From: an archaeon
GTDB lineage: Archaea; Micrarchaeota; Micrarchaeia; Anstonellales; Anstonellaceae
Assembly: GCA_020056635.1 (NCBI GenBank)
Contig: JAGVHI010000017.1
Location: 1-43,874, forward strand
Direction of reading: 5' to 3'
DNA length: 43,874 nucleotides
In this document: positions 9,367-29,700 of the stretch, piece by piece
How the letters are laid out: every line of letters starts with the position of its first letter
Numbering within the stretch: position 1 is the first letter of the stretch
Translations under genes and position numbers: made by a program
Notes under the pieces: generated by a model
Database searches by the model: none
What the model was told of the DNA's origin: nothing
What the model saw: only the letters and a program-made list of their open reading frames with translations

Positions 9367-9370
9367 AAAG

Positions 9371-9380: not shown

Positions 9381-9456
9381 CATCGAAGAGAATTAAAGTA
9401 GCCTTTTTCTTAGAGAAGGTACTCACATTAGTTTTGAGTCATTTGAGGTGTAAAGT

Positions 9457-10197: not shown

Positions 10198-10248
10198 AGC
10201 GGAATGAAATAGGAATGCTGGAAAACCAAATGCAAGCGGCTGATAACC

Positions 10249-10599: not shown

Positions 10600-10608
10600 G
10601 TGATTTCA

Positions 10609-10773: not shown

Positions 10774-10782
10774 GGTAGTAGC

Positions 10783-11232: not shown

Positions 11233-11259
11233 GCAGGAGCCTTTCTTGCAATTAAAGGG

Positions 11260-11934
11260 TTGGTTAGATTGGTTTCTGTTTCAAAAGCATCCAACTTCGG
11301 GAACTCCTACATAGGCATGTTCGCAAAATCGGGCGAGCAAATAACCCTTATCGGGGCGGGAAGCTCCCCGAAATTCGAGTCCGCACTTGCATCGCTTGGC
11401 ACTACGCTTGTCCGCGCCACTTTTGCAAACTCCAACCTTGCCGGAATTTACTGCGCGCTTAACTCAAATGGGATTGTCGCAAGCGCGCAGCTGGAGCCCT
11501 CTGAGCGCAAGATACTAAAGAAGCTCGGCATGAATTTCTACGCGTGCAAGGACAAGAAGAGCTCGATGGGCAACAACCTGTGCGCAAACGATAAGGGGGC
11601 GATTGCAAACCCGTACATCCACCGCGTGGAGATTGCAAAAATTTCCGAATGCCTCGGGGTCGAGGTGGCACAGATGATGGTTGCAGGGTTCGAAACCGTG
11701 GGAATGGCATGCGTTGCGACTAACAAGGGGTTCGTTGCGCACAACAGCTGCACTGAAGAGGGGCTTAGGGGGATTGAATCTGTGCTCAAGGTGAAAGGGC
11801 TCAACGCCACGGTGAACATGGGGACCGCGCACGTGGGGCTGGGGTTGCTTGCAACAAGCAAGGGGTGCGTGGTAGGGGATCTCACATCCGGATTTGAAAT
11901 TTCCAGGGTCCAGGAGGGATTGGACCTGATTTGA
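11260..11934 (+). CDS. eif6: Translation initiation factor aIF6
   Basis: aIF6 binds the 50S subunit (uL14 region) and prevents early joining with 30S. The 224-aa protein has the pentein fold of five repeated units. Family segments visible are N-S-Y-I-G-M-F-A (15-22), NNLCANDKGAIANP (near 106-119), TVNMGTAHVGLGLLATSKG near 187-205 and GDLTSGFEISRVQEGL at the end. The start is a TTG at 11260. A second TTG at 11269 is possible, but the M-x-R-L beginning fits relatives better. There is no clear Shine-Dalgarno site apart from AAAGGG just upstream. Confidence 0.94.
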   Translation: MVRLVSVSKASNFGNSYIGMFAKSGEQITLIGAGSSPKFESALASLGTTLVRATFANSNLAGIYCALNSNGIVASAQLEPSERKILKKLGMNFYACKDKKSSMGNNLCANDKGAIANPYIHRVEIAKISECLGVEVAQMMVAGFETVGMACVATNKGFVAHNSCTEEGLRGIESVLKVKGLNATVNMGTAHVGLGLLATSKGCVVGDLTSGFEISRVQEGLDLI

Positions 11935-11950
11935 GCCTTGGGGGATGCAA

Positions 11951-12280
11951 ATGGTATCATACGACGAATTTTCAAAAATCGAACTGAAGGTCGGAATCGT
12001 GAAAATCGCGGAGCTTGTGCCGAACTCAGAAAAGCTGCTTAGGCTCGAACTTGATGTCGGGGAGGAAAAGCCCAGGCAGCTTGTGGCGGGAATCGCGCAA
12101 CATTATAAACCCGAGGAGCTAATAGGTAAGAGCATAATCGTCGTGGCAAACCTTGACATAAGGACAATCCGCGGGCTTGAGTCGCAGGGGATGCTGCTTG
12201 CCGCGGATTTGGAATCTGAGGGGCGGGTGGCGCTTCTCACAACCGATTCCAATGTTCCCGCTGGCACGAGGATAAAGTAA
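11951..12280 (+). CDS. tRNA-binding-domain protein (Trbp111/MetRS-C type)
   Basis: A 109-aa OB-fold protein of the tRNA_bind family, as found in the C-terminus of MetRS and in free Trbp111-like proteins. The start ATG at 11951 (MVSYDEFSKIEL) has a GGGGG site 7 nt upstream; the ATG at 11945 is too close to that site. Motifs are the F-x-K-I-E-L-K-V-G-I-V entry strand, H-x-x-K-P-E-E-L-I-G-K near 55-63, V-V-A-N-L (about 68-72) and G-L-E-S-Q-G-M-L-L-A-A (about 80-90). It could bind tRNA as a dimer or work in trans with MetRS. It is part of the ribosomal operon. Confidence 0.88.
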   Translation: MVSYDEFSKIELKVGIVKIAELVPNSEKLLRLELDVGEEKPRQLVAGIAQHYKPEELIGKSIIVVANLDIRTIRGLESQGMLLAADLESEGRVALLTTDSNVPAGTRIK

Positions 12281-12298
12281 CAGGATTTGGTGGTTTGG

Positions 12299-12469
12299 AT
12301 GAAGTTTTTGGTTTCTGGGATGATAAAAATCGGGAGCAGGAAGTTCAAGAAAGAGATTGAGGCTGCATCCGAGAGGCGCGCGCGCGAGCTTGCGTACACG
12401 CTGCTTGGCGCGCAGCAGGGGCTTTCCCGCACCCAAATCGCAATCGACTCAGTTTCGAAGGTGGTGTAG
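12299..12469 (+). CDS. rplX: 50S ribosomal protein LX (eL20-like)
   Basis: The 56-aa archaeal LX protein, homologous to half of eukaryotic eL20 (L18a). The sequence MKFLVSGMIKIGSRKFKKEI is the family start, so the ATG at 12299 is used rather than the upstream one at 12287. It is followed by A-S-E-R-R-A-R-E-L-A-Y and a closing I-x-I-D-S-V-S-K-V-V. A GGTGG element lies 8 nt before the ATG. The stop codon directly abuts the prefoldin ATG. Confidence 0.92.
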   Translation: MKFLVSGMIKIGSRKFKKEIEAASERRARELAYTLLGAQQGLSRTQIAIDSVSKVV

Positions 12470-12907
12470 ATGGCAGGCAAGGAGGATGAGCTTCGCGACC
12501 TTGCGGCGCAGGCCCAGGCGCACCAGCAGCAAATGGCCGCGATTTCAAACCAGCTCAACAGCATCTCGACAACAATGGAGGAGATAGCTGCCGCCATGGA
12601 CACGCTCCAGAACATTGCGGCCGCAAAAGAGGAGGTGCTCCTGCCTATAGGCGCGGGCACTTACATGCGCGCAAAGGGCGCGGACATCGAGCATGTAGTG
12701 GTCAATGTGGGCGCAAACATAATGAGCGAAAAGACAATTCCAGAGGCAACCGAATTTTTGGACAAGCGGATGAAGACATTGAACGGCCTTCAGGTTCGGC
12801 TCCAGAGGGCGGCTGACGAGGTCTCAAAAAAGCTAGCCGACATAGACCTGCAGGCGCGCACTCTTGCAGGGGGGATGGACCGCAATGTTCGGCCTTCTCA
12901 AGAATAA
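12470..12907 (+). CDS. pfdA: Prefoldin alpha subunit
   Basis: Prefoldin alpha forms the core of the hexameric jellyfish-shaped cochaperone that hands unfolded proteins to the group II chaperonin. The 145-aa sequence is coiled coil, then beta hairpins, then coiled coil: residues 1-50 rich in Gln/Ala heptads, L-L-P-I-G-A-G-T-Y and V-V-V-N-V-G-A-N-I strands in the middle, then a second helix from about 90. The ATG follows the LX stop directly. The end overlaps the start of FtsY by 23 nt. Confidence 0.93.
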   Translation: MAGKEDELRDLAAQAQAHQQQMAAISNQLNSISTTMEEIAAAMDTLQNIAAAKEEVLLPIGAGTYMRAKGADIEHVVVNVGANIMSEKTIPEATEFLDKRMKTLNGLQVRLQRAADEVSKKLADIDLQARTLAGGMDRNVRPSQE

Positions 12908-14435
12908 GCTTTCAAGCTTCATCTCAAGCCTTACCGGGCGCGAGCAGAAGAAAGCCGAGGAAGAGTCGAGGCGTGCGGATATTTTTTCATCCGCACCCGA
13001 GAGCGAACAAAAGCTAGCGCAAGCTGCGGAAAAAGAAAAACTAATTGCTAAGCCGGAAGAGGCAAAGCCGCAGCAAAAGGAGAAAATTGAAGCTAAATCC
13101 GAAGTAAAGAACATCGAACCAAAAAAATCCGAGACGCCTGAAATAAAAGCGGAAATTTCAAAAGCGGCTCCGAAAAAAGAGGAAAATGCGCCCGAAGCTA
13201 AAGCGGAACCGAAAACTGAAGCAAAAGCCGAAATGAAAAAATTAGAACAGGCTGCAGAACCCGCACCAGCAGTGCAAATCCCAATCGAAGCAAAACCATC
13301 TGCACAAAAACCGGCTGAAAAAACTGAACCAATACCAATCGAGCCTAAGCAAAAAGGAATCGAATTGCGAGTACCCCGCCCGCCGGAGCCTGAAAAGAAA
13401 AAAGGTATTTTCGAATCACTGACTGGCGTATTTTCAAAAAAGGAGGAGAAAAAATTCGAGCCCTCGCTTGAGAGGCTCTCAAAAGCATCAGCGAGCGAGC
13501 GGCGGATTGAGGCAAAGCCGGGCATAATCTCCCAGCTCAAATCAGCGTTCTCAAGCACTGTTGAGATTTCGGAGGGCGATGTTGCGGACCTGCTGGATGG
13601 GTTGGAGCTCTCGCTGCTCGAATCGGACGTAGCTTACGAGGTCTCGGTTTCCCTTGCGCAGGACTTGAGGAAAAAACTGGTGGGCAAGCGGATTGAGAAA
13701 GGGAAATTGCAGGAGGAAGTGCAGTCCACAGTGCGCTCTGTGCTGGTTGATGCGATGACCTCGCAAAAGGCGTTCGTGCTTGCCAAGCGGCTCGCGACAT
13801 TTGAGAAACCGGCAAAAATCCTGTTCATAGGCCCGAACGGCGCAGGGAAGACTACTACGATGGCAAAGCTTGCGCACCAGCTCATGGGAGGCGGGCTTAG
13901 GGTTGTGTTCTCCGCATCAGACACCTTCCGCGCCGCCGCAATCGAACAGACAGAGGAGCATGCAGGCAGGCTCGGGATAAAGGTCATTAAGGGGAAATAC
14001 GGGCAGGACCCCGCATCTGTCGGGTTCGAGGCAATCTCCTATGCAAAGGCGCATGGGGTGGATGTTGTGATGATTGATTCTGCAGGCAGGCAGGACACAA
14101 ACCAGAACCTGCTTGATGAACTCAAAAAGATTGTGCGGGTTTGCAAGCCTGATTTGAAAATCTACATAGGCGAGAGCATAGGCGGTAACGCGGTGATTGA
14201 GCAGATTAGGGCGTTCGATTTGGCGGCTGGCCTCGACGGCGTGATACTCACCAAATTGGATTGCGACGCGAAGGGCGGGACTGCAATCTCCGTGACTCGG
14301 GCAACAGGCATTCCAGTCCTTTTCGTGGGGACAGGGCAGCGCTATGAGGACCTAATCCCCTTTTCCCCTTCAGGCATTGCAGAAGATATTTTAAGCGAGG
14401 GGCAGAAACCGTCTCATGGGCTCGCCAATACTTGA
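12885..14435 (+). CDS. ftsY: SRP receptor GTPase FtsY
   Basis: FtsY is the membrane-side receptor for SRP-ribosome complexes. MFGLLKNKLSSFISSL is the family-like start (ATG 12885); an upstream in-frame ATG at 12864 would lie deeper in prefoldin. Residues 1-20 form an amphipathic membrane-contact helix. Residues about 25-180 are a Lys/Glu/Ala-rich low-complexity linker, longer than usual and probably disordered. The N and G domains fill the rest: P-loop GPNGAGKTTT (about 316-325), D-T-F-R-A-A-A (near 345), DSAGR near 400, TKLDCDAKGG (near 460) and G-T-G-Q-R-Y-E-D-L near the end. Length is 516 aa against about 300-380 in most archaea. The stop overlaps the next start by 20 nt. Confidence 0.95.
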   Translation: MFGLLKNKLSSFISSLTGREQKKAEEESRRADIFSSAPESEQKLAQAAEKEKLIAKPEEAKPQQKEKIEAKSEVKNIEPKKSETPEIKAEISKAAPKKEENAPEAKAEPKTEAKAEMKKLEQAAEPAPAVQIPIEAKPSAQKPAEKTEPIPIEPKQKGIELRVPRPPEPEKKKGIFESLTGVFSKKEEKKFEPSLERLSKASASERRIEAKPGIISQLKSAFSSTVEISEGDVADLLDGLELSLLESDVAYEVSVSLAQDLRKKLVGKRIEKGKLQEEVQSTVRSVLVDAMTSQKAFVLAKRLATFEKPAKILFIGPNGAGKTTTMAKLAHQLMGGGLRVVFSASDTFRAAAIEQTEEHAGRLGIKVIKGKYGQDPASVGFEAISYAKAHGVDVVMIDSAGRQDTNQNLLDELKKIVRVCKPDLKIYIGESIGGNAVIEQIRAFDLAAGLDGVILTKLDCDAKGGTAISVTRATGIPVLFVGTGQRYEDLIPFSPSGIAEDILSEGQKPSHGLANT

Positions 14436-15311: not shown

Positions 15312-16517
15312 ATGGAGTGGCTGAAGCCCGCGCTGTTGCTCATTGCCATAGCTTCGCTGTCATACGCCGCCCTACCTGGGGAAACAATAGCATTTACCAT
15401 CTGCCTCCCGCTTGCAGTCGGGCTGGCAGCTGCGATAATCGGGCTTGCGTACATGGCAGGCCAGCTTTTCCATCTTCCGGGGCTCGATGCATGGGTCAAG
15501 GTCGAATTGCAGGAGCTGATTTTGTCCATAGTGCTGGTTGTTCTGATTGCAGCAGCAGCCTCGGGCTCCGCGTTTTTCGTAGGCGTCCTGTCCGGCCGGG
15601 CGCTTGCGCCATCATACTCCTCGCTTTCCTCTGAAGCCAACGTTGCCCTCACAAACATGACTTCCGACCTCGAAGCAACATACAGGCACTCCACCCGCGT
15701 CCTATACAACCTGAACAAGGTGGTGGGCTTCTCCTATTCGGTCTCCTTATCTGTATTCGCGGTATCCGGCACCTATTCATGGGCTCCGCGCTCAGGCCTC
15801 GGGCCGCTTGCAGGTGCGATGATAAATGGTATGAACTCGATTTCCAATACCCTGCTTCTGATGGAGGCGCAGCGCATCTTCCTCCAGCTCCTTGCGGTGG
15901 TCATACCGGGGTTCGTGCTCCCTGCCGCGGTGGTGCTGCGCACCCTTCCGCAAACAAGGAAGATGGGAAGCACGCTGATAGCAGTTTCCATAGCGGGCTG
16001 GCTGGTCTACCCTGCAGCCGTCCTTTTCACAAGCGAAATATACAACCAGATAAAAGTTTCGGCAGGCGGCAATTTCCCGAACCTGGGGTGGGACGTGCGC
16101 GACATCGGGTCCCCGCCTGCGCAGGGCCTGCTCTGCAGCAAGTATGTGACTGTTTTTGCAATTGTCGGGGAGGAGGGGTGGTCGCACATAATCTGCGACC
16201 CGCTTCTTGCAACGGTGATACTCGCCCCTGCCTACCCCGCCTGCGTAGTCATAGTGAAATACACTTACATGGCAATAGTCGCCGGCCTGCCGTTCTATTT
16301 CGGGCACGTGCTTAACGCCTACATGCAGGAGGGCATAAGCACTGCCGAATTCTTCGACCCGATTTTCAAGGTCGCGCTGCCGGAAATCACAAAGCTAATC
16401 GTGCTTGACATATCGCTGTCGATTGCCTCGATGGCAATCACGCTGTCCGCGCTGCGAAGCATCGCAGGCGCGCTTGGCGGCGAAGTGCAGCTCTACGGGC
16501 TGACAAAAATAATCTGA
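15312..16517 (+). CDS. Polytopic membrane protein A of the envelope operon (VirB6/TrbL-like layout)
   Basis: The 401-aa protein is highly hydrophobic: an N-terminal signal/anchor helix (MEWLKPALLLIAIASLSYAA), then about seven more helices. It shows the three motifs shared by the paralogues of this operon. Motif 1 is LAYMAGQ followed by L-D-A-W-V-K-V-E-L (about residues 42-60). Motif 2 is V-V-L-R-T-L-P-Q-T-R-K-M-G-S (about 205-218), then an alanine-rich helix ending in Y-P. Motif 3 is a C-terminal tail L-G-G-E-V-Q-L-Y-G-L-T-K-I-I. The layout recalls VirB6/TrbL inner-membrane channels of type IV secretion, but I can show no direct homology. It is first in the operon and its stop is followed by a 14-nt gap. 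Confidence 0.8.
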   Translation: MEWLKPALLLIAIASLSYAALPGETIAFTICLPLAVGLAAAIIGLAYMAGQLFHLPGLDAWVKVELQELILSIVLVVLIAAAASGSAFFVGVLSGRALAPSYSSLSSEANVALTNMTSDLEATYRHSTRVLYNLNKVVGFSYSVSLSVFAVSGTYSWAPRSGLGPLAGAMINGMNSISNTLLLMEAQRIFLQLLAVVIPGFVLPAAVVLRTLPQTRKMGSTLIAVSIAGWLVYPAAVLFTSEIYNQIKVSAGGNFPNLGWDVRDIGSPPAQGLLCSKYVTVFAIVGEEGWSHIICDPLLATVILAPAYPACVVIVKYTYMAIVAGLPFYFGHVLNAYMQEGISTAEFFDPIFKVALPEITKLIVLDISLSIASMAITLSALRSIAGALGGEVQLYGLTKII

Positions 16518-16531
16518 TGCGGGGCATTGAA

Positions 16532-17491
16532 ATGGGCAAACCATGGAATGCGGCGCTTGCGCTGCTGCTATTGTCGCCCCTGCTTTTCGCAGGAGTGTGG
16601 GACCAGTGCACCCCCGCGGAAATAGTCTCGAACCCAAGCTCGCCCTACAACCAGTCGCTGGGGCTCATAGCAATCGCAGTAGTGCTTGTGCTCTTCCTTG
16701 TTTCGCTTGCATACATGTTCGGGCAGAGCACGCACAATGAAAAGCTATTGGTCTGGTCCAAGGACGAGGCTGCGAACCTAGTGGTTTCAGTTGTGCTTGC
16801 CGCTGCAGTTGTGGGCTTTTTTTCCGTATCCTGCGCAGTCGCGCTCGGGTACACGAACGAGAACCCGTATGAGATTTCCTACGATTACCTAAACGACATG
16901 GTCCATAACGGGCTGAACCTGGTCTCAAGGCTGACCAAGGCCGGGCTCAAGGACCAGATAAAGTCCACTTCGTTCCTCTACATCGGCGGGATACCGTTCT
17001 TCGGGGGGATAGGCTGGGCGTACAATGCGAATGCGCGCACGCTCTCCGCGCAGAAGGACATAGTGATGGACATGGTCCTGCCGTCTATTGTGAGCCTGCG
17101 GGTGCAGCGCTTTGCGCTCGAGGCGGCGCAGTCGTTCGGCCTCATGCTGCTCGCGCTTGCGATATTCCTGCGCGCAATACCACTCACGCGCGACATCGGC
17201 AACCTTTTCATAGCGCTAGCCTTCGCGGTTTACGTGGTGTTCCCCTTCACATATGCGATAAATGCGATGGCGGTGGCGAAATACCCGCCAGCACTTGGAG
17301 TGTCCGCATCCGGGTCGCACGATTTTGCGCTTGACGGCGCAGGGACCGGCTGCGAGGGGACCGACAGGTGCGCACTCATGATTGCAGGGTACATGCTGCC
17401 GCAGGCAATCCTGTTCCCGAACATAAGCATAATATTGGTAACCGCGTCAACAACCGCGGTGTGGAAATTCCTGCGCGCGTTCACTGCATGA
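16532..17491 (+). CDS. Polytopic membrane protein B of the envelope operon
   Basis: A 319-aa paralogue of the preceding protein. The start ATG at 16532 has a GGGGC site upstream; the ATG at 16517 overlaps the previous stop and lacks one. A signal-like helix (1-20) precedes a short Cys-containing loop. Motif 1 is LAYMFGQ with L-L-V-W-S-K-D-E-A. Motif 2 is F-L-R-A-I-P-L-T-R-D-I-G-N followed by a long hydrophobic stretch. The C-terminal L-G-G-E-type tail is degenerate (VWKFLRAFTA). A loop with C-E-G-T-D-R-C before the last helix could hold a disulfide outside the cell. Six or seven membrane helices are likely. Confidence 0.78.
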   Translation: MGKPWNAALALLLLSPLLFAGVWDQCTPAEIVSNPSSPYNQSLGLIAIAVVLVLFLVSLAYMFGQSTHNEKLLVWSKDEAANLVVSVVLAAAVVGFFSVSCAVALGYTNENPYEISYDYLNDMVHNGLNLVSRLTKAGLKDQIKSTSFLYIGGIPFFGGIGWAYNANARTLSAQKDIVMDMVLPSIVSLRVQRFALEAAQSFGLMLLALAIFLRAIPLTRDIGNLFIALAFAVYVVFPFTYAINAMAVAKYPPALGVSASGSHDFALDGAGTGCEGTDRCALMIAGYMLPQAILFPNISIILVTASTTAVWKFLRAFTA

Positions 17492-17504
17492 GCGAAGTGG
17501 TAAG

Positions 17505-20500
17505 ATGGAAAATCCAAGGCATATCGCCGGGCGGTTCGCGCTCCTTGCCGCAATTGCCACCATTCTTCTTGCAGGAATCCCAGCTGCGCAGCCGTACAAC
17601 AATTCGACCGGGGCGTACATACATGGCCTGGAGAGCGCGGCGCCGCAGATAGGCACGTTCGGGGGCTCGGGCTGGTTTGCGGACTGGCGCGCCCTCTCCG
17701 CGATAGCGATTGCAATCTCCCTTTCGATAATCGCGCTTGCGTACATGGCATCAAACTTCTTGGGCATGCAGGAGCTCAAGGTATGGGCGAGCATTGAGTT
17801 CGTGCAGGTGGTTGGCTCGGCAATCATCATAATGGCGCTTATCGGCACGATACAGTTCACTGACACATTGTCCAGGCAGGTGGTTGAAAACAATTTTGGG
17901 TCCGTGATAGGCACATGCCCACAGGATAAGCTCTGCACAGTCGTGGCAGCCAATTTCTACCTCGAGCAGCTCAAGAACGTGTCGGACAAGGCGGCATTCG
18001 ACGTGCTTTCGCGCAACGTGGATTACGCGCGTGTCACGCGCTACGGAATACAGGCTAACATACAGTGGCTGCTCTGGAGCGGATTCTCCATGGTTCCGGG
18101 GGCAGGAATCACAATGCTTACGGACAAGATGGCATACCTGTTCGATTCGTATGCGAAAATCAGCGCATCGCTCTCAGCGCAGCAGGCTTTTGTCAACGAG
18201 GTGGCATTCAACATCGGGCCCGCGTTCATACTGCTTGGGGTGGTGCTGCGCACGTTCTTTTTCACTAGGAAGTTAGGCGGCCTGCTGCTTGCAATTGCAG
18301 TCGGGCTGATGCTCGTGCTCCCGCTTCTCTACGCGTTTGCATGGTGGACTATGAAAATCACTGTTTTTGGCCCTCAGGCAGTCGGCCCAGACCCAAACTG
18401 CCCGGATGAGTGCAAATACTCGCCGCCCTACGCATACCTGGGCTCGAATCCGGATGTCAAATTCACACGCGCGAATTTCACCATGAACCGGTGGAACGAA
18501 ACCCACCACCCACGCGGCATAATGCTCTGCGACAAGGCGATTGGGAGCATGAACAACCTTGGCGCGCTGGACGGGGCAGGGTGTGATGAGTGCCCTGAGG
18601 CGTGCAGGGACTACCCGTTCCCTTCGCAGCTTGACGGGTGCAACGAGGAGGCATGCACGAAAGAGTGCTCTCAGTTCTGCAAAGTGAGGAGGATACGCAC
18701 TGATTGCAGCCTAAATGAGGTGTGCCCCACCTCATGCACAGAATCCTGCAAATTCACCCTGCCGCGAGGGCTTGAACCCATAATCCCGCCTTACATCCCG
18801 CCTTACACAACGATTTCTCCCTACCCTGGCATGCCAAGCCCGGGCTGCGAGCAATGCCTGGGCTATGATGCGGATGGCAACGGCACAATCGACCAGTCAA
18901 AACCGGATGAGCAGGGGTGCCCGTACTATTGCAGAGTATATACCGAGGATGCATCCGGCAACCCGGTCGCATCAGACAAGGAGAGCTGCAACATAGAATC
19001 ATGCACCAGCTTCACAAGGTGCCAAAAGGACTGCAGGACCCTGCTCCCGCAAGTCACGCAAAAAATATGCGATGACTCATGCGACGGGTGCCCGGAATAC
19101 TGCAGGATAAACGTGGGCCCGCAATACATAATCGGGACTGATTTTGACGAGTGCGATACTACCGAATGCCGGGACGACTGCCCGGTTGAATGCAAATCGA
19201 CTCCTCCCGCCCCATCAGCATTCCCTGATGGCGCCTGTGCCGCATTCCCTGATATTGCAGGCGATTACATGCACGATTGCAAGGGATGCCCGTATATATG
19301 CCGCGCCACCTCTGACAGCGCGCCAGAGGAGTGCGCAGCGGATGCGATTATAGAAGCGTGCTACAACGATGCGAACTGCGCGAGCACTTGCCGCACGAAC
19401 TACACAATACTTCCGTGCGATGTGGCATGCGGGTGCAAGATTGAGAATAGGACTGCAGGGCTCTACGGTGGTTCGGATTATTGGTTCCCGCACGGCTCGG
19501 ACTGCAACAATGTCCCCGCATGCACAAACCCGGACTGCGTGCCGCGCATCGTGGACATGTATGGGGCAACCTACACTCCATTTAGTTGGGTCCCCTGGGG
19601 CATGCCTGCCGGAAGCTGCGGTAACTGCCGGTACGAGTGCAGGTTCACGAACCTCAATTCCACGAATGAGGCTTGGTGCATAAATGATGCTTACTATGCG
19701 GAATACTTCCCGAGCTCGAGCACAAAACTTATTGCGGTACACATGGCGTGCAATGGGCTGTGGGTGAATGCAAGCCATCAAAATGTTTCCGGCCCGCCGT
19801 ACTACTATCACCTGCCGAGCACCGGGCCTCCGATACCAGGGATAAGTGCAAACCCACTATATACCCATGATTACTGCCCGGACTCAATGAAGGCAAATAA
19901 CGATGGCGAGAACGTGCCGTACTACTATTGCGACGAGGCGATGCAGACAGGCACGACTGCGGATGGCGTGGTGCAGCCAATCGGAAATTACACAAACCCG
20001 CTGCTGGGCGACTGGACTCCGCGTGCAGGAAACCATGAACAGAGGCGGGGAGTGGGGTTCCCATCGAATATCACAATCCATAATTACACATTGGACGCAA
20101 GCGGCTTGCCTGTGGAAGTGCCGGGCTTCCCCCAAACTATAAATTACAATCGCCCAGACACCACCGGCTGCGGGTTCTGCTACACAGGGTGCAGGTACGA
20201 CGACCCTGCGAACTCGAACTGCGGCAACCAGGACGCGTTCTACTCTGCGTGCCTGCAGCAGGGCTATTCGCATGACAACGGAGCGGGGGTAATATCGCTT
20301 CCGCCAGAGCCGCGCTTTGGCTCCGAGCCAATAGGCGAATGCCCGAAGTATTGCAGGCACTACGCCCCGCCAACCCCGGACCCGTTCTCCTCATGCAAGC
20401 CCTATGACAACCGCTCGTGCATGTTCTGCCCTGCCTACTGCAGGGCGGATGTCACCTATCCTGGCGGCATGTGCCCGCAATACTGCAACTCCGGGAGCTG

Positions 20501-20834
20501 CCTGGATTCGTGCAAGGCATCGCCGCCCCCGTTCCAGCCCTGCCAGGAGTGCGCGGAGTGCGAGGAGGACTGCCTTGCGAAAAACTCTGTGCGTACCGAC
20601 TGTTCGCTAACATGCAATGCTCCATCAGGTGATGTTGCATATTTCACTCCAGCGGATTTCATAAACAAAATCGGCGCGGAGGGCGACCCGGACACCAAGA
20701 ACCTCGGGATACTTTCCATACCCGCGCTCGTGCTGCCGCTGTTCAATTTCGTGATGCTGCTTGCGTTCATACGCGTGCTCTCGCCTGTGATGGGCGGGGA
20801 CATTGAGATTCCTGGGCTGACAAAGCTGATATGA
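17505..20834 (+). CDS. Membrane protein C with a 745-residue Cys-rich extracellular insert
   Basis: This 1109-aa paralogue has the same membrane frame as its neighbours. It has a signal helix, motif 1 (LAYMASNFLGMQELKVWASIE, about 85-105), motif 2 (V-V-L-R-T-F-F-F-T-R-K-L-G-G, about 245-258) and motif 3 at the very end (MGGDIEIPGLTKLI). Between motif 2 and the last helices it carries about 745 residues (roughly 296-1040) very rich in Cys, Pro and Asn. Inside are at least eight copies of a C-x-x-C-[P/R/Y]-x-x-C-R motif (for example CDGCPEYCR, CKGCPYICR, CMFCPAYCR). Most are followed by further Cys clusters, so a chain of small disulfide-bonded domains outside the cell is likely. Many N-x-S/T sites suggest glycosylation. 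I know no family with this build. Confidence 0.8.
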   Translation: MENPRHIAGRFALLAAIATILLAGIPAAQPYNNSTGAYIHGLESAAPQIGTFGGSGWFADWRALSAIAIAISLSIIALAYMASNFLGMQELKVWASIEFVQVVGSAIIIMALIGTIQFTDTLSRQVVENNFGSVIGTCPQDKLCTVVAANFYLEQLKNVSDKAAFDVLSRNVDYARVTRYGIQANIQWLLWSGFSMVPGAGITMLTDKMAYLFDSYAKISASLSAQQAFVNEVAFNIGPAFILLGVVLRTFFFTRKLGGLLLAIAVGLMLVLPLLYAFAWWTMKITVFGPQAVGPDPNCPDECKYSPPYAYLGSNPDVKFTRANFTMNRWNETHHPRGIMLCDKAIGSMNNLGALDGAGCDECPEACRDYPFPSQLDGCNEEACTKECSQFCKVRRIRTDCSLNEVCPTSCTESCKFTLPRGLEPIIPPYIPPYTTISPYPGMPSPGCEQCLGYDADGNGTIDQSKPDEQGCPYYCRVYTEDASGNPVASDKESCNIESCTSFTRCQKDCRTLLPQVTQKICDDSCDGCPEYCRINVGPQYIIGTDFDECDTTECRDDCPVECKSTPPAPSAFPDGACAAFPDIAGDYMHDCKGCPYICRATSDSAPEECAADAIIEACYNDANCASTCRTNYTILPCDVACGCKIENRTAGLYGGSDYWFPHGSDCNNVPACTNPDCVPRIVDMYGATYTPFSWVPWGMPAGSCGNCRYECRFTNLNSTNEAWCINDAYYAEYFPSSSTKLIAVHMACNGLWVNASHQNVSGPPYYYHLPSTGPPIPGISANPLYTHDYCPDSMKANNDGENVPYYYCDEAMQTGTTADGVVQPIGNYTNPLLGDWTPRAGNHEQRRGVGFPSNITIHNYTLDASGLPVEVPGFPQTINYNRPDTTGCGFCYTGCRYDDPANSNCGNQDAFYSACLQQGYSHDNGAGVISLPPEPRFGSEPIGECPKYCRHYAPPTPDPFSSCKPYDNRSCMFCPAYCRADVTYPGGMCPQYCNSGSCLDSCKASPPPFQPCQECAECEEDCLAKNSVRTDCSLTCNAPSGDVAYFTPADFINKIGAEGDPDTKNLGILSIPALVLPLFNFVMLLAFIRVLSPVMGGDIEIPGLTKLI

Positions 20835-20844
20835 GGAATAGGGA

Positions 20845-22491
20845 ATGGGAAAAGCATTGCTGCAGTTATGGCTGTTCGCTGCGCTACTGCTGTTGCTGCC
20901 GCAGCTCGTGCAGGCATGCGTTCCTGCAGGCACTTCATGCAGTTCAGACGTATGCTGCGGCAGTTTTTTTTGCAATGTGACAGAGTTCAACATATGCAGA
21001 CCGCGCGAAATATGCACCCCTGGCCAGTGTGTCACGGACGGCTGCTTATATGATTTCTCCTGCCATTCTGACATGTGCATAGATGGGCAATGCGCATGCA
21101 GGCCAAACTCACTAACATGCACCCGCAACATGGTATGCTGCTCAGGATTCTGCGATGCTGGGGCATGCCAGGAGCCGCCCCCATCCTTTGTCCAATGCGG
21201 AGATGTGCGACCTGCAGCAACCTATACAGTGGCCGCTAACTCCAATCTACACCTCACTGTATTCGAGCCTACGGAGTGCGTGCCATCAAATGCGGGCACT
21301 GAGCCTGCATGCAGGGAATTCACCCTGACAAACAACGGGCATATGGGGGGCGTGAACATAACGATGCTATATTTCGATGACACCGGATTTTTGCAGGTGA
21401 ATGGCCACACCATATTCTACAAGCCGCCAGTATCGACCCCTCCTCCGCACATGGGGCTGAATCTGGACCTCTCCCCATACATAAACACTGCGGACGGGCA
21501 GACAAACACATTCAAGCTGTATGCAGGTGATGTATACGGGTCGTGCTATGGCGCATCGATGGATATATTGATGGAGCCACTGCGCCCGGATTTGGTTGCG
21601 GCCGTTTCCCCGGACCCGGTCCCGCAGCAGACTGTCACAGTCCCGTTTGGCCTAGCGCTGCGCACTTCAAACCCTGGATGGGCAGACAGCCCGCCTACAG
21701 TGACTAGGGTTCTTTTCAATGGCGCGCCAGTAGGCAATTTCAACATTCCGGCGCTTGCCCACAATGGCTACGTCGATACAAACCTCCCTCTTGACTGCCC
21801 GCATAATGGCAGCATCTCTCTCCAGCTGTATGCGGATTATGGAAATGCCGCTGTAGAAGGGTCTGGCGAATCCAATAACTACCGGGAAATCATGGTGGAG
21901 TGCATAGCGCGCCCGGACCTTGTCCCTTCCGCAGCCCCGTCGGTGCAGACTTTCGGAACCCCATTCTCTGTCGGTGTCATCACCACAAACGCAGGGCAAG
22001 CGGCAACAGGCTCGCCATCGGTTACGCACGTGGAGTTCAACGGGCATCCTGCAGGGGACCTTTCGGTTTCAGCGCTTGCGGTCGGCGCATCGAGCAGTAG
22101 CCCAACTCCTCAGCTTTCCTGCCCGCACAATGGGCTCATCCCGCTACAATTATATGCCGATTCCGGCGGCGCAGTGAATGAGGGGCCGTTCGAGGCGAAC
22201 AATTATGTGGAATACATGGTGGAGTGCAAGCCCTCGCAGCTGATCTGCGGCACCATAGATATTATGCAAACGCAGACCATTGCGCTAATCGGGATAATCG
22301 GGGCGATTATGATTATTGCAATGGTCTATGCAGCTGGGGTTATCTGGACCAATGCAAGGCTTCTGATGTGGGCAAAAGCCGAGGTAGTGCAGGCGATTGT
22401 TTCAATATTGCTCCTGGTGATGATTGTATGGATACTCGAGCGGGCGTGCCTTACCACGCCGGGCGAGATAATAAAAATATTCTTCGGATGA
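20845..22491 (+). CDS. Secreted Cys-rich and CARDB-like protein D with C-terminal membrane anchor
   Basis: A 548-aa protein with a signal peptide (1-24, ending V-Q-A). Residues 25-110 are a Cys-rich region of knottin-like units (GTSCSSDVCC; LTCTRNMVCCSGFC), then a beta domain follows. Two CARDB-like immunoglobulin-type repeats begin R-P-D-L-V near 247 and 355; each ends with E-x-N-N-Y-x-E-x-M-V-E-C. Near 478 starts a two-helix membrane module with motif 1 of the operon family (VYAAGVIW, then L-L-M-W-A-K-A-E-V-V-Q). Motifs 2 and 3 are absent, so this is only the first half of the paralogous membrane unit fused to an adhesin-like outer part. CARDB domains usually mediate protein or cell contact. 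Confidence 0.78.
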   Translation: MGKALLQLWLFAALLLLLPQLVQACVPAGTSCSSDVCCGSFFCNVTEFNICRPREICTPGQCVTDGCLYDFSCHSDMCIDGQCACRPNSLTCTRNMVCCSGFCDAGACQEPPPSFVQCGDVRPAATYTVAANSNLHLTVFEPTECVPSNAGTEPACREFTLTNNGHMGGVNITMLYFDDTGFLQVNGHTIFYKPPVSTPPPHMGLNLDLSPYINTADGQTNTFKLYAGDVYGSCYGASMDILMEPLRPDLVAAVSPDPVPQQTVTVPFGLALRTSNPGWADSPPTVTRVLFNGAPVGNFNIPALAHNGYVDTNLPLDCPHNGSISLQLYADYGNAAVEGSGESNNYREIMVECIARPDLVPSAAPSVQTFGTPFSVGVITTNAGQAATGSPSVTHVEFNGHPAGDLSVSALAVGASSSSPTPQLSCPHNGLIPLQLYADSGGAVNEGPFEANNYVEYMVECKPSQLICGTIDIMQTQTIALIGIIGAIMIIAMVYAAGVIWTNARLLMWAKAEVVQAIVSILLLVMIVWILERACLTTPGEIIKIFFG

Positions 22492-22502
22492 GGGGGACTG
22501 AG

Positions 22503-24788
22503 ATGGGAAAGAATTGGATTCCAATGGCGCTCCTGTGCATGGCGTTTTCCCTATTGCTAATCAGCTCCAGCCATGCGGAAGTATGCAGGGCTATATTCAT
22601 AGGCCAATGCAACAGCCATGCGACTAGAATCCCCTGCCAAGCAGACCTGCATTGCACATGGGATGAGGACCCCCCTCCTCCAATCGACGTATGCGTTGCG
22701 CGCCGTTCCGCAGACTGCGCGGCTGCAACCACGAATGCCGCATGCTCTGTTATCATGGTGGACGGCCACCGCGCATGCGCGTGGAGGCAGTGCTGCGAAG
22801 ATGGCTGGGCAGGCGAACAGAGCTGTCTTGTCCTGACACACAATCCAGCCAGCTGCACCGCAGGCTGCGTTATGGGTGGGGATGGGCTTTGCCATGGGAT
22901 GTATCGCGGCACGTGCATGCCTTATCAATCGTCTCAAGCAGTATGCGAACCAGGGGCAGGGGCGCCGGGAACTGCTTGTGATTGGTTCAGCCTGGCTGTT
23001 CCATGCGCCGGCCCCCCCGCACCCCCGGCAGATCTGACCCCATTGGTCACCCCGGCATCCATCGGAACGCACTCGATTGGTGAAACGTTCTCAATAGCAG
23101 TTGTTACGCGCAACATAGGCACAGGCACTCCGCAGAACAATTCCATTACCAGAGTAACTACGAGCCCGTCACCCGGCGGGATGGACATAAGCGTGCCGGG
23201 CACTCTTGCTCCAGGCGCATCCACACCTCCACAGAACGTGGACCTGACATGCACAGTGATGGGCATCAATACGCTTACTGTGCGGGCAGATGCACCACCC
23301 CCTCGAGTAGGGGAATCCAATGAAAACAACAACCTATTCACAGTTAATTTCACCTGCACGTGCATAGAAGGCGGGCAGGCATGCGACCCAAATGCCCCCG
23401 TGAATGCCTGCTGTTCCCCCTACTCCTGCACAAACGCTGACGGGGTTGGCGCGTGCGTGCAGGCAACCGACGTGAACCTGGTCCCAATACTTGAGGACCC
23501 ATCAGCCTCGGGCCACCGCAACGGCTCTGAAATATTCATAATCGCAAAAATCAGGAACAACGGGACCGCGGATGCGCTCAACAATTCAACTGCGGCGCTA
23601 AACTGGCTCGGGGTGGATTATCCAATCGGGCCGATACCGCCGATAGAGGCAGGCGCAGAATATGTGATTGCCCCGTATGACCCTGCAAACCCAACAAACC
23701 CTGCAAACCTGCCAAGGATATTTGCCCCAAGCGCACCGAACAGCTACCCTCTCATGCTGCGCGCCGATTCAGATGACGTGCTTGACGAGCTGAGCGGGGA
23801 AGGGGATGACCTGACCATACAGATACTGAGCGGGCAGGCGCAGCCGCTTTCAACCCCATGGACAAGGTTTGCCGCAATCGGGCTGATACTTGCTTTTTCG
23901 CTTGTCGCGCTCATGTACATGATTGGCATGTTCCTTAACAGGCCCGAGCTTCTTGCAAGCGCGCGCGAGGAATTCTACCAGCTGTTGTTCGTAGGTGTAA
24001 TAATCGCGCTTTTCGCGGTCCTGCTTACCGACGTTTCCTCAAACTACCTGCCCTCGGCAACGCTTGCACTCACAAACGGGACCTCAACAGACCTTATGGG
24101 GAGCGCAAGGCAGGTCACAAGCGCGAACGCAGGCGACATATACTGGCTTTTTGCAAACATCGAGCAGGGGATTAAAAAAGTCGGGCAGGAGGCCTCAAAG
24201 TCCGCATACTGCAGCTTCCTTGGGGCAGGCTACAACGTGGTGACGTGCACCACACTTAATGCTGCGCGCGGGCCGCTTGGCACAGCCTACTCCGCGCTCG
24301 GGCTTGCGCTTGCCGACCTTTCTGCGCAGGATTTGATGCTCAAGCTAAGCGACTCTTTCCTGCTTACGCTGCTCCTCCCGATAGGCATAGTGATGCGCAC
24401 ATTTAGGGTGATGAGGCAGGCAGGGGGGGCGCTCATGGCAATCTCGCTCGGGTTCTATTTCATATTCCCTGCAGCGGTCCTTTTCACAAAATACTACATT
24501 GTCGACCCTTCGCAGGATACAATACTTGCAGGCACATCGGTTGGGACTGCTGCTGCGCATGTCACCCATCTGGAATGCACCCCAACCGAGATGAACCGCA
24601 ACGAGGTGACCGATTACATGGACGGGCTCGCAAGCCCGGGTTTCTACCGGCCAATACTATTCATAGTGCTTGTGAAGGCGGTGTTCTCGACCATACTTGC
24701 GGTGTTCATCACCCTTGGGTCAATACGCTACCTTGCATCATTGCTCGGTGCGGAAATAGACGTGAGCGCGCTTGGCAGGATTTCGTGA
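22503..24788 (+). CDS. Membrane protein E with Cys-rich and CARDB-like outer domains
   Basis: A 761-aa protein starting at the ATG with a GGGGG site 8-12 nt upstream; in-frame upstream codons fall inside the previous gene. A signal peptide (1-25, ending S-H-A) is followed by a Cys-rich region (25-150). A first CARDB-like repeat, a knottin-like unit starting GQACDPN near 295 and a second CARDB-like repeat follow. From about 452 the full membrane unit begins: motif 1 (LMYMIGMFLNRPELLASAREE), motif 2 (I-V-M-R-T-F-R-V-M-R-Q-A-G-G near 627, with M in place of T) and motif 3 (LGAEIDVSALGRIS). It combines the outer part of protein D with the inner part of proteins A-C. Confidence 0.78.
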   Translation: MGKNWIPMALLCMAFSLLLISSSHAEVCRAIFIGQCNSHATRIPCQADLHCTWDEDPPPPIDVCVARRSADCAAATTNAACSVIMVDGHRACAWRQCCEDGWAGEQSCLVLTHNPASCTAGCVMGGDGLCHGMYRGTCMPYQSSQAVCEPGAGAPGTACDWFSLAVPCAGPPAPPADLTPLVTPASIGTHSIGETFSIAVVTRNIGTGTPQNNSITRVTTSPSPGGMDISVPGTLAPGASTPPQNVDLTCTVMGINTLTVRADAPPPRVGESNENNNLFTVNFTCTCIEGGQACDPNAPVNACCSPYSCTNADGVGACVQATDVNLVPILEDPSASGHRNGSEIFIIAKIRNNGTADALNNSTAALNWLGVDYPIGPIPPIEAGAEYVIAPYDPANPTNPANLPRIFAPSAPNSYPLMLRADSDDVLDELSGEGDDLTIQILSGQAQPLSTPWTRFAAIGLILAFSLVALMYMIGMFLNRPELLASAREEFYQLLFVGVIIALFAVLLTDVSSNYLPSATLALTNGTSTDLMGSARQVTSANAGDIYWLFANIEQGIKKVGQEASKSAYCSFLGAGYNVVTCTTLNAARGPLGTAYSALGLALADLSAQDLMLKLSDSFLLTLLLPIGIVMRTFRVMRQAGGALMAISLGFYFIFPAAVLFTKYYIVDPSQDTILAGTSVGTAAAHVTHLECTPTEMNRNEVTDYMDGLASPGFYRPILFIVLVKAVFSTILAVFITLGSIRYLASLLGAEIDVSALGRIS

Positions 24789-24807
24789 TTGGATGGGATT
24801 GGGCATA

Positions 24808-25608
24808 ATGAAAGGCGCATTGCTTGTTGCGTTTGCCGCAGCAGTGCTCCTGGCGCTCGCGCATCCTGCCCATGCATACACTACTGCGGATTACGAATCA
24901 TATGGCGGGCTTGACGCGGACGACACAGTCTACGTCTCTGCTGAGAAATACCTCCTGTTCCTGCGGGGCTACTGCCACGAGACCATGAAAGGGCTTAGGA
25001 TTGCTATGGGCGCAGGCGAGATAAAGGCGGGCAAGACACGATGGAAATGCACAGGGGTGATTTCCTGCATACTTGGCGGGCCTGGCTATTCGGTTTCGCC
25101 GGGCGCAGGCTACACATCGGTGATTGAGGTTGCAGGCATTTTCCTGAACTCCGCGACAGTTTCCACAGTAAGCGCGTTTTTCATGCACTTCGTGCTCCGC
25201 TACATATCCGGGGGGTTCCTGCTATTCTACCTGCCGCTCGGGCTTGCGCTGCGCTCGGTCTCAATCACGCGGCCCCTGGGAAGCACGCTTGTGGCAATTT
25301 CCCTCACGCTCTACATATTTTACCCATTAATGCTCGTGCTAAACAGCATGATATTCCCCTCGATTGCAGGCAACATACCCGACCTTGGCCCGTACTCAAA
25401 CGAGCAGTACATGGGCGGGCTTGAGGTGATATACAGGTCATATGACGCGCCCAGCATGGATTCGCTTGTGAGATGGACTGCCTATTCGTTCTTCGGAGCT
25501 ATTTTTCTGCCTGCGGTTGATTTTGTAATCATAGTGGCGCTTGCGCGCGAGACTGGGCACCTGCTTGGCGAGGAAATAGATATAAGCAGGCTCTCGCAGA
25601 TGGTGTGA
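24808..25608 (+). CDS. Membrane protein F, C-terminal half of the paralogous unit
   Basis: The 266-aa protein starts at ATG 24808, with GGATGGGATTGGG upstream; an earlier ATG at 24772 would overlap the previous gene. A signal peptide (1-24, ending A-H-A) leads to a short outer domain with two Cys near 75-95. Motif 1 with its helix is missing. Motif 2 (L-A-L-R-S-V-S-I-T-R-P-L-G-S, about 145-160) and motif 3 (L-G-E-E-I-D-I-S-R-L-S-Q-M-V at the end) are well kept. It is thus complementary to protein D, which has only motif 1. Whether the two form one complete unit together is inference. The next ATG follows 5 nt after the stop. Confidence 0.78.
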   Translation: MKGALLVAFAAAVLLALAHPAHAYTTADYESYGGLDADDTVYVSAEKYLLFLRGYCHETMKGLRIAMGAGEIKAGKTRWKCTGVISCILGGPGYSVSPGAGYTSVIEVAGIFLNSATVSTVSAFFMHFVLRYISGGFLLFYLPLGLALRSVSITRPLGSTLVAISLTLYIFYPLMLVLNSMIFPSIAGNIPDLGPYSNEQYMGGLEVIYRSYDAPSMDSLVRWTAYSFFGAIFLPAVDFVIIVALARETGHLLGEEIDISRLSQMV

Positions 25609-25613
25609 TCATA

Positions 25614-26756
25614 ATGGACGCAAAAAGAATCCAAAGGCTGCACCTATATGCGCTTTTCGCGCTCCTGCTGCTGCAGCCGTTCGTGCACGCGGATGAGGAT
25701 TACGGCGGGTCAGAGATCCATGACATATTTGACCGCACGTGGTGCGGCAACCCGTCAAGCCCGCTTGCGCTCCCGAGCTGCGGGGCGGGGAACTACGGCT
25801 GGGGCGTGATGGCGCTTCTTGCGGTGCTCGCAGTTTTTTTTGCCCTAACCATAATCTACATGTTCGGGCACGGGTTCGGGCTTGAGAATGTGAAGCGCTT
25901 TGCGAAAGCCGAGTTTTACGAGTTCGGCGCCTCCACATTCATCATCCTATTCGTGGCATACCTGCTCTGGGCAGGGGGCAATATTTTCGGCTTCATAAAC
26001 GAGAAGGTGATTGGGACAGGGAGCACCGTGATATGCAACGGCAGGGTCCAAAATGTGGTGAATGTGGGCGGGCCTATCGCAATCGCGAAATGCAACATAC
26101 AGGACAAGATAATCCAGCTTGACAAGCTATATGACAGGGTGTACAAGAACAACATGAAAATCGAAACTTGGGCATCTGCCTGCTTCATCCTGTTCGGGGT
26201 GCAGATATTCTGCGGGGACTGGGTCGTGCACAGCGTGGTCGAGCAGGCGCACCTAATAGGGGAGAAAATTGTCCCGCTCCAAGTCTCGCTGCACGCGCAG
26301 TACGTATTGCTTGAATACATATCAAAGAACATGCTTGGGGTGTTCCTGCCGCTTGGCATATTGCTTAGAGTATTCCCGCTCACGCGGGGCATGGGCGGGT
26401 TGCTGATTGCAACCGCTCTTGGGTTCTATTTCGTTTTCCCGATAATATTCGTGCTGACCGACCCGACTTTCGTGAAGGCGGATTCAACTTTCACCCCGCC
26501 TCTAACGCAGGGGGAGGCGTGCTTCGATTCGTTCAAAGGGGCGACCGCGGTTTACAACAGCTTCCTCATGCCCTCTCTGGATTCTGTTGAGATGTCGTAC
26601 GGCAGCGTCACTGACCTGCTCTCGCGCCTGACTGTGTCCATGATGTTCTACCCGTTCGTGGCGTTTGCAGTAACCATAATATTCATACGCTCGCTTACCC
26701 CTGTGCTTGGCGGGGATACTGGGGACCTTGCAAGGATGGTGGCAAAGCTCGTGTAA
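25614..26756 (+). CDS. Polytopic membrane protein G of the envelope operon
   Basis: A complete paralogue of 380 aa, starting at ATG 25614 just behind protein F. It has a signal helix (about 8-26, ending V-H-A), a short outer segment with two Cys, motif 1 (I-I-Y-M-F-G-H with V-K-R-F-A-K-A-E-F, about 80-105), and a loop with paired Cys (VICNGRV; IAKCNIQ). A helix with C-F-I-L-F-G-V-Q-I-F-C-G, motif 2 (I-L-L-R-V-F-P-L-T-R-G-M-G-G, about 250-264) and motif 3 (V-L-G-G-D-T-G-D-L) follow. It has the best-kept motif 2 of the set and would make a good search query for the family. Confidence 0.8.
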   Translation: MDAKRIQRLHLYALFALLLLQPFVHADEDYGGSEIHDIFDRTWCGNPSSPLALPSCGAGNYGWGVMALLAVLAVFFALTIIYMFGHGFGLENVKRFAKAEFYEFGASTFIILFVAYLLWAGGNIFGFINEKVIGTGSTVICNGRVQNVVNVGGPIAIAKCNIQDKIIQLDKLYDRVYKNNMKIETWASACFILFGVQIFCGDWVVHSVVEQAHLIGEKIVPLQVSLHAQYVLLEYISKNMLGVFLPLGILLRVFPLTRGMGGLLIATALGFYFVFPIIFVLTDPTFVKADSTFTPPLTQGEACFDSFKGATAVYNSFLMPSLDSVEMSYGSVTDLLSRLTVSMMFYPFVAFAVTIIFIRSLTPVLGGDTGDLARMVAKLV

Positions 26757-26766: not shown

Positions 26767-29700
26767 ATGGCTGGAATTAACAGGAAGCTCGCCCTTCTGG
26801 CGCTCGCGCTAGCGGTCACGCTGTTCCTTTCCGGCTGCGCGGACAACACGTTCAACACATGCTGCCTTCGCGAATTCGTCCCAACCGGCATATGCAAAGT
26901 GAGGGACGGGGCATCATACATCGATTACACTATCACTCGCTGCCCGTATGACATAACATCCGTGGCAGGGAACAACACGTGCGAAATAAACTATGTGCTC
27001 AACAATGGCACTACCATAGTTACGAATTTCACAATCTGCGCGCGCCCCTCGCCTGACCCGTGCGAGAAGAAGAACTGCACCGCGATGATATGCGGGGTGG
27101 GCAAGTACAACCCGCAGCCCACCATGAGCGCAAAAGACGCCCAGAGTGCGGATACTGGAAAGACCAGCTACGATTCCTCATTCGGCAAGCCTTCGCTTGA
27201 GGAGGAAACGATGCTTTACCAGACCACGTGCAGCTTCCTGCCACTAAACACAAAAGTGGTGCAGAAAATCAAGCGCTCGCGAGGCAGGCTCTGGATAAAC
27301 ACGCTGCGGTTCGGGGTGGGGAAAACCTTCTCGGAGTTCGAGGAGGCGCGGAACTACTTCCCTATGTCTGATGAGCTCTGCTACGGCAAGAAGGTGGGGC
27401 TGCTAAAGGAGCGGTACATGAACTATTACAATTACACGGATGCATACTGCACACCGTACGCGCCTGCGCAGCCGCGCTCGTTCTGCCCGATGTTTGGCCT
27501 GTACTTCAGCGACACGCCCTCGTGCGAGGCATATTGCGGAACTGGCGCATGCACTGACCTCCCTTCCGAGGACAAGTTCAAGTGCAGCACGCGGTTCCTG
27601 ACTGAGAGTGCATGCACTTCTGTGTGCGGGCAGGCGTGCAAATTTTTCGCAATGAGGTACCTGTGCAAGGATTCAGCCACGGGTACAGTGTTTGGCAGGT
27701 ACAACAACATAACCGGGTGCCAGTATGAATGCCGCGCACCCAATGTTCCTGCAGGCTACTCGTGCCAGCCCGAATACACTTCTCCTGCTGGACCTGGATA
27801 TTACATCTGCCCTGCGGAATTCGACAATCCAGCATGCACCGGCGCCTGCAGCGCCGCGGACTGCACTCCGCTCACAAGGTATTACTGCTATGCGGATGGA
27901 GGGCTGCACCCATCGCGCGTTGCATGCACGCAGCAGTGCAGGCTGTATGACAACACCGAGTGCACGAATACCAACCCCCCGTTCTTCACAGGGCCTGACG
28001 GGAAATATGAATATTCAGTTGACAGTGCGTGGGGGGCAAGAAAATGCGACCGCGACGGGGACAACAGGTGCGAATCAACCTGCACCGGATACGAGGGCCG
28101 GCCCTATAACTCGGGAGACCCGGAATTCTCCGGTCCATACTGCAACAAAATATCGAATTCAGTTGAAGTGAATGCGGCATACTACCGCAATGACCTCGTG
28201 CGCCAGTACAACCGCACCTACTGGTCGGGATTCGAGGATTCGGAAGGCAACTGGGTGCAGGGAGCGCCTTTCGAATGCGCCTCCGGCTCGCAGTGCTACT
28301 CGGGCTACTGCAACAAGGAGGGGGGGCATGTGCGCGACACGTGCGTCCCGCGCTACGATGAGGGCGGGTACGAGATAGACTGCGCGTGCCATCCCACGAG
28401 CAGCGGAGGGACGAAGTGCGACCTGCCAGTCCCGTTCAGCTACCTCAAGCTCAAGGAAGTCTGCATCTGGGGCTCGTGGTGCACAGGCATCTGGGCGGAC
28501 AAGGGGGTGCAAAGGGTGGATTCGGTCACGTTTGACCGGGATGGGACCGAAGTAGTGGGTTACCACCCAATATATGAATCCTCAAACAACCCGAACAACT
28601 ATCCTACATCAGAAGGCTATCTTCTCGACCCGAGCAGCCCCTACCGCTGGAAGCTTGCGACAGACTGCGGCATTTCAAGCTACGTAGTCGACCCAAACCC
28701 CAACAGCGGCCCGGCAGGCTACAGCGAATATGACCCGACAGTTTTCATCTATCACGGGATGAAGCGGTGCAAGCATCTTATCTGCTCATTTATCATGCCA
28801 TGCGGCTTCTATCCGCCATGCATTTTGATACTATATGTTCCATACGGCATGTACTATCCCTCATTTGACTTGGCATCCGGGCAGGTCCTTGAAACAGACC
28901 CGCGGCGAGTTATGTTCATGCGCGATACATCCTACCTTGCGAACAATGCCCCGCACGTGCACAGGTTCACGCTCGACCCGACGACCGCGTTCAGTGACCC
29001 AGCTGCCACATGCAAGTCCGATGACAACCAGCCTATGGTCGCAACGCACGGCTGGTGCGAGCCATGCACGTACTCCACACTTGCGTACCAGAAAATAGAG
29101 AACCATCCGGGCGGCACATACTGTCCGTGGTACCGCCAGCGCCGCTCGAACGAGGACCACCTTGATTACGGGTGGCTTGACCGCACGAGCAGCTGCCCGA
29201 GTGCATCGTTTTTCAATGAGCGCGGGATGCGCTGCAACTCAAACTCGCTTCCAGGGCTTACTGGCGGGCAGTGCAGGGGCTACCTGACATGGCCCAACAT
29301 GTATCCGGATTACGCATACCTGAACCAGAAGCTTGACAATTACCTCAAAAGCGGCGTGATGCCAGTAGTGGATACGCGGCAGCTTGCGCTCTACTGCCCG
29401 CACTGGAGAATAAACTGGGCATCATTCACAATGGAAACCTACTACTCGCCTGATTGCAACAATGCGGTGCCAGGCACTGAACTGGACGAGTTCGTAGGGT
29501 GGTTCGACAACAAGGGAGCAATGATAAACCTGCTCGGCGATTTGGGCGATACTGGCAAAGCGAGCACAAAGCTTGTCATGTCTTCTGGAGTATGCCCGCG
29601 CTGCATAAACGCGTTCTCTGTCAGTAACATCGCAGGCGACCCTGCGACGCGCGAAACAAGGTGGGGAAACATACAGAGCCAGCTTGATTTGTTCTTCGGG

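Follow-up and report, generated by a model that had tools for sequence, protein, structure and literature searches.

An operon of polytopic membrane proteins, A to G, lies at 15312-26756 of contig JAGVHI010000017.1 from an archaeon of the Anstonellaceae (Micrarchaeota; assembly GCA_020056635.1). The window analysed here is the whole of that stretch, 43,874 nucleotides, and corresponds to contig C13 of a metagenome-assembled genome (labelled G000) of about 1.1 megabases in 27 contigs that is 78.8% complete. On balance, the operon probably encodes the membrane channel of a Ced/VirB-like translocator of the type IV secretion system (T4SS) kind, in which six paralogues, one of each, stand in place of a single VirB6-type protein. 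According to the proposed mechanism, A, B, C, E, D/F, and G, each at its own conserved position, would assemble one-of-each around a pore, and this channel would sit on a hexameric VirB4-type motor made of two polypeptides: a protein termed X, combining a two-helix anchor with a VirB4 N-terminal domain, and a separate HerA/VirB4-type ATPase, both encoded on contig C25 together with two proteins termed Z and W. The cysteine-rich and CARDB domains on C, D, E, and probably on a downstream protein, H, would face outward and contact a partner cell, while ATP hydrolysis would drive the substrate through the channel. From the features described below we infer the one-of-each ring with its stoichiometry, its docking on the motor, and its contact with host cells, as well as the substrate, which would be either DNA, by analogy with Ced, or protein.

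The archaeon is tiny and probably host-dependent. For the open question of how such small archaea and their hosts exchange material, a conserved translocator found in 92% of the genomes sampled from the phylum would be a direct candidate. In the open-access literature searched, no description was found of the combination seen here, in which six paralogues are fixed, the VirB4 N-terminal part is a fully separate protein, conservation spans an archaeal phylum, and the operon has been duplicated whole.

Paralogy, gene order, and descent

The earlier note on this DNA had read the operon as the product of repeated duplication of one ancestral unit, a view that is now supported by pairwise searches, by a genome-wide profile search, and by a tree. 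Paralogy of A, B, C, E, F, and G is confirmed at the sequence level. Among the window proteins, these six are linked by BLASTP over about 200-340 residues, with E values down to 2e-12. A profile of all seven proteins yielded 22 matches in the genome, all located either in the window operon or at about 19.0-26.0 kilobases of contig C2 (G000:C2); since they are confined to two loci, the profile is specific with respect to generic membrane proteins. Assignment of A to G against Pfam and NCBIfam returned nothing except CARDB, and a profile search of PDB sequences with the relatives of G gave no match. The three motifs proposed earlier fared differently. Motif 2 ([LIVM]Rx4[TM]Rx2G[GSN]), claimed for these six proteins, occurs exactly once in each of them, against a chance rate of 5e-5 to 2e-4 per protein in composition-preserving shuffles, and is absent from D and from the two downstream proteins, H and I. 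Motif 1, ascribed to A, B, C, D, E, and G, is found in its strict form (Lx2WxKxE) only in A, B, and D, with a relaxed form in C, E, and G. The C-terminal tail said to be common to most of the proteins fits strictly in A, C, E, and F and loosely in G; it does not fit B.

The genes, all on the + strand, follow each other with gaps of about 10-20 bases or small overlaps from A to G, in keeping with the tightly spaced operon described before. Position 1 is held by A (15312-16517; 401 amino acids, aa), which has BLASTP matches to E, F, and G and represents the position A line of the tree, and position 2 by B (16532-17491; 319 aa), which matches G at 2e-12 and belongs to a single tree group with a support of 98. 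At position 3, C (17505-20834; 1109 aa, 74 cysteines in the protein) is placed by both BLASTP and the tree; at position 4, E (22503-24788; 761 aa) has an N-terminal CARDB ectodomain (8e-8) and matches C at 3e-12; and G (25605-26756; 383 aa), the query used for tracing the family, holds position 6. Position 5 is divided. Its N-terminal half is D (20845-22491; 548 aa), consisting of a CARDB ectodomain (1e-15) and a hairpin with motif 1, and its C-terminal half is F (24808-25608; 266 aa), which has motif 2 and the tail and matches G at 5e-11; in the window, the two halves are separated by E. When the C-terminal hairpin of D is used as a query, each of the five best matches is a relative's F-position protein. 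In relatives, F is a single gene with both motifs, and the copy in locus L033 matches D as well as F. Because the hairpin of D finds F-position proteins, the operon comprises six units, one of them split around E, and a count of seven separate paralogues is rejected; the paralogous set proposed earlier thus persists with one member fewer. The split leaves D with a free two-helix hairpin, for which a pilin-like role is conceivable; the N-terminal part of CedA has been reported as homologous to the CedA1 pilin (PMC9905601).

With G as the query, the family was detected in 107 of the 116 genomes sampled from the phylum (92%), many of them with 4-16 matches. Exactly six core genes are present in every operon covered in full. 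Where four were counted, the operon runs off a contig (L001), extends past the stretch taken (L112), or is incompletely resolved (L044 and L118). The second locus of the genome is itself a complete six-paralogue operon (L032, G000:C2:13000-32999; 5937-13014, +), and the two operon types are referred to as operon 1 and operon 2. A profile for each position of operon 1 was used to score operon 2 and operons from distant families, gene by gene. Of the 720 possible permutations, the collinear order A-B-C-E-F-G ranked first in seven of the 12 operons and second in one more; the other four, from families f9/f10, keep C and G but leave the assignment of A, E, and F ambiguous. A maximum-likelihood tree was built from 118 proteins; on it, the six positions and the single-gene version described below need 7 label changes (minimum 6, shuffled mean 78). 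The tree was made quickly and has long branches and many forks of weak support, and it does not settle the branching order of the six lines or the ancestry of the single-gene version. Judged by sequence, the six positions are six orthologous lines and the set is an ancient one, which bears out the earlier claim of distinct, non-redundant paralogues. Members of operon 1 and operon 2 fall within the line of each position, indicating that the six-gene operon was later duplicated whole.

A version with a single paralogue and its own X and/or ATPase was also found (L104, L113, L114, L115, L119, and L046). Three of these loci (L113, 6615-11038; L114, 8652-12888; L119, 6899-10121) may hold a homomeric relative of the six-part channel. 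A more far-reaching proposal can be advanced tentatively, as one that falls a little short of being probable: a phylum-wide obligate hetero-hexamer of six VirB6-like paralogues that arose from a homomeric ancestor with one gene, itself related to the present one-paralogue version, and that is matched to a six-fold split VirB4 motor, its whole operons having been duplicated to give two channel isoforms per cell. If a ring of six fixed-position paralogues does exist, it would be a clear case of a homo-oligomeric secretion channel turned obligate hetero-oligomer. This conversion is testable, since the phylum includes genomes in the one-gene, the six-gene, and the duplicated six-gene state.

A two-polypeptide VirB4-type motor

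In families f9, f10, and f14 (L043, L045, L047, L048, and L049), the six genes are directly followed by X and Y, of about 277 aa each, and by an ATPase of about 505 aa, with Z and W slightly further. The ATPase matches DUF87, AAA_10, and the TraG P-loop above the cut-offs, and among structures it matches VirB4 (4ag5) as well as HerA. Against NCBIfam, it scores 70.6 bits with CedD and 69.9 bits with CedB (about 1e-19), below the cut-offs of 600 and 700. Whether a VirB4-type ATPase is found elsewhere in the genome had been raised in the earlier note, and one copy is indeed present, at C25:6987-8552; it is 65% identical to the L043 copy, and PF12846 matches nowhere else in the genome. The surrounding conserved module (L102, 6123-12451, +) has the order X, ATPase, a 161-aa cysteine protein, Z, and W, where Z is a coiled coil with a winged-helix-like C-terminus and W has a large ectodomain and a conserved C-terminal part.

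T4SS motors characteristically have a VirB4-type N-terminal domain. For X, a membrane protein with two helices, the predicted structure has a predicted local distance difference test score (pLDDT) of 87. In a Foldseek search with this model, the top five matches are all R388 VirB4 chains (probability 0.99-1.00, E 0.007-0.02), after which the probability drops to 0.33; a PDB profile search with X returned coiled-coil-type matches only. On the strength of the model, X is best read as a VirB4 N-terminal domain on an anchor of its own. X and the ATPase are separate genes, so that the VirB4 domains are not in one chain, and a division of VirB4 N-terminal parts between two proteins has been described for CedB/CedD (PMC11868833).

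The motor and the paralogues share their distribution. X relatives occur in 107 of the 116 genomes; X and the paralogues are missing from exactly the same nine, which come from four families and so count for fewer than nine independent events. The distribution of the strong ATPase (E<1e-100) agrees with this except in G072. A paralogue and the ATPase lie within a few kilobases of each other in at least 30 genomes, as judged by comparing two tables by eye. The presence of six paralogues of conserved position next to a VirB4-type motor points to a channel with one of each, matched to that motor. The hetero-oligomeric ring or channel of the earlier note accordingly gains distinct paralogues in a fixed order, while the ring itself is still something that we infer.

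Membrane topology and the relation to VirB6

The AlphaFold model of G (pLDDT 80, predicted template modelling score 0.74), taken with counts of positively charged residues, gives a predicted signal peptide and five helices, with the N-terminus outside, the C-terminus inside, and a large external loop between helices 2 and 3. Lysine and arginine amount to 12.4 per 100 residues in loop 1, 21.6 in loop 3, and 10.6 in the tail, whereas the other loops have 3.7-4.9. The cytoplasmic side is predicted to hold the conserved residues E103 (motif 1) and R255/R261 (motif 2). From this topology, the CARDB domains of D and E would be outside, as would the cysteine-rich insert of C, located in a predicted extracellular loop that precedes the last helix; the extracellular domains differ among the paralogues. 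N-out and C-in is also the orientation of the five-helix VirB6 model. Correspondence of the paralogue layout with that model (PMC2653234) is supported by these predictions, and a role as the VirB6 partner of the VirB4 motor is well supported by context. Homology to VirB6 is unproven. The VirB6/TrbL-like layout put forward earlier thus finds support in the five helices and their orientation; there is no Pfam match, and hhalign scores lie within the controls.

Several observations weigh against the proposed channel. TrbL (PF04610) matches nothing in the genome, among the window proteins, or in any of 32 relatives of G. With hhalign, comparison to VirB6/TrbL (16 plasmid sequences) gave non-significant E values of 0.26 and 0.25, and the 118-sequence profile scored 17.2, inside the range of block-shuffled controls (mean 14.4, standard deviation 2.3, maximum 20.5), so that this route gives no significant support for homology, even with 118 members. 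The structural comparison that had been suggested was no more favourable, as Foldseek with the G model returned no match at E<=0.001; one chain of an R388 T4SS entry, 8rtd_H, stands at rank 20 (E 3.1). The conserved tryptophan region of VirB6 is not reproduced either: in the best alignment, THRFFDQW of R388 VirB6, whose W we take to be the essential tryptophan of the VirB6 domain, stands opposite TRGMGGLLI, with no conserved tryptophan there. In the order to which the archaeon belongs, the motor and the paralogue operons are on different contigs. In this genome, at 78.8% completeness, a VirD4-type coupling protein (PF02534) was not found. No pilin was identified, and no CedA or pilin profile was compared. 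Finally, VirB4 motors form hexamers, and R388 VirB6 forms a pentamer (PMC9259494), onto which six different subunits do not map simply. The best local profile alignment sets motif 2 opposite the P-T-H-R segment of VirB6, GPLFILALIWQPTHRFF, and a lenient full-length alignment begins collinear for motif 1 too; these two alignments may serve as leads only.

Among the alternatives, a membrane complex unrelated to T4SS that shares only a VirB4/HerA-like ATPase, such as a surface assembly or export platform of new fold, would explain the lack of a significant VirB6 match by sequence or fold. We consider it unlikely: the motor has both VirB4 halves, including the VirB4-type N-terminal domain, the usual polytopic partner of VirB4 is VirB6, and the topology agrees with the five-helix VirB6 model (PMC2653234). 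Equally improbable in our view is a set of separate homo-oligomers, one per paralogue, each a VirB6-like channel or an adhesin platform of its own, with the six serving as alternatives for different partners or substrates on one shared motor. The one-paralogue version with its own X and/or ATPase does indicate that a homomeric channel can probably work, and the variation of the extracellular domains between paralogues would suit such a division of labour; yet interchangeable alternatives would be expected to vary in both number and order, whereas the same six orthologous lines occur together in every complete operon.

The substrate is a separate matter. Because the ATPase resembles CedB/CedD, DNA transfer is suggested for the one-of-each channel. 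A machine for protein delivery or adhesion on a host cell, as opposed to DNA transfer, in parallel with the T4SS of Patescibacteria and Rickettsiales, shares the same channel model and differs in substrate, so that confidence in the two overlaps; it is a serious possibility that we hold to be somewhat less than probable. Delivery to a host is suggested by the large cysteine-rich and CARDB ectodomains, by the T4SS-linked giant surface proteins of nanohaloarchaea (PMC10266531), and by an epibiotic bacterium for which virB6 is essential (PMC12102498); the lack of a detected VirD4 in this genome also fits. Against it, the nearest named ATPases are the DNA-import proteins CedB and CedD, and no effector was identified.

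Of the known systems, Ced of the Sulfolobales (CedA, CedA1, CedA2, CedB, CedD, and CedE) is likewise archaeal and T4SS-derived, pairs a polytopic VirB6-type protein with a HerA/VirB4-type ATPase, spreads the VirB4 N-terminal parts over more than one protein (PMC11868833), and supplies, through the NCBIfam families CedB and CedD, the best matches of the ATPase of this genome. Ced differs in having one or two CedA-type proteins instead of six paralogues. Here, moreover, the ATPase reaches only about 70 bits against cut-offs of 600-700, X is separate and membrane-anchored without an ATPase domain, and a CedA1-type pilin is not recognised, no pilin profile having been compared. The rvh T4SS of the host-dependent Rickettsiales has five VirB6 paralogues (RvhB6a-e) with large divergent extra domains (PMC2653234). 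It belongs to a diderm T4SS and retains recognisable VirB6/TrbL domains, whereas the present system has six paralogues, is archaeal, lacks a TrbL match, and shows a split VirB4 and whole-operon duplication. In the R388 Trw T4SS, with its VirB3/VirB4/VirB6 inner-membrane complex, the counterparts are the VirB4 N-terminal domain that X resembles and the VirB4/TraG P-loop of the ATPase; unlike here, VirB4 is one chain and VirB6 is one gene forming a homopentamer (PMC9259494). Patescibacteria and nanohaloarchaea, the latter with T4SS-like giant proteins, offer the parallel of a reduced T4SS in small host-dependent cells, and a six-paralogue channel is not reported in the accessible parts of the sources (PMC12102498, PMC10266531).

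Flanking genes and further observations

The transcription unit probably extends past G through H (26767-30684, +; 1305 aa) and I (30732-37118, +; 2128 aa), to 37118; neither protein has a Pfam match. H, with 80 cysteines and a lipobox-like signal (LSGC), follows G in operon 1 of relatives and is a probable extracellular accessory protein of that operon. I comprises a signal peptide, a short ectodomain, about two helices, and a very long polar tail. Its weak relatives stand beside both operon types (phmmer 3e-17 for L001, 4e-12 for L112, and 2e-6 for L032). Downstream of the operon in L032 are genes for DUF1405 and CARDB proteins and for a family B DNA polymerase; a divergent 1947-aa protein there is weakly similar to I. 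Upstream of the window operon are ftsY (12864-14435) and then a gene for a 276-aa protein.

Elsewhere in the window, a cysteine-rich protein (4608-5372, -) has a weak class III signal peptide match (E 0.041) and is possibly pilin-like. Contigs C12, C14, C15, C20, and C23 of the genome contain many large open reading frames resembling the CARDB and cysteine-rich parts of D, a rich surface-protein repertoire. In genome G009 (L036, 3907-6761), SecD and SecF are encoded directly downstream of an operon of the second type, an arrangement that may be due to chance.

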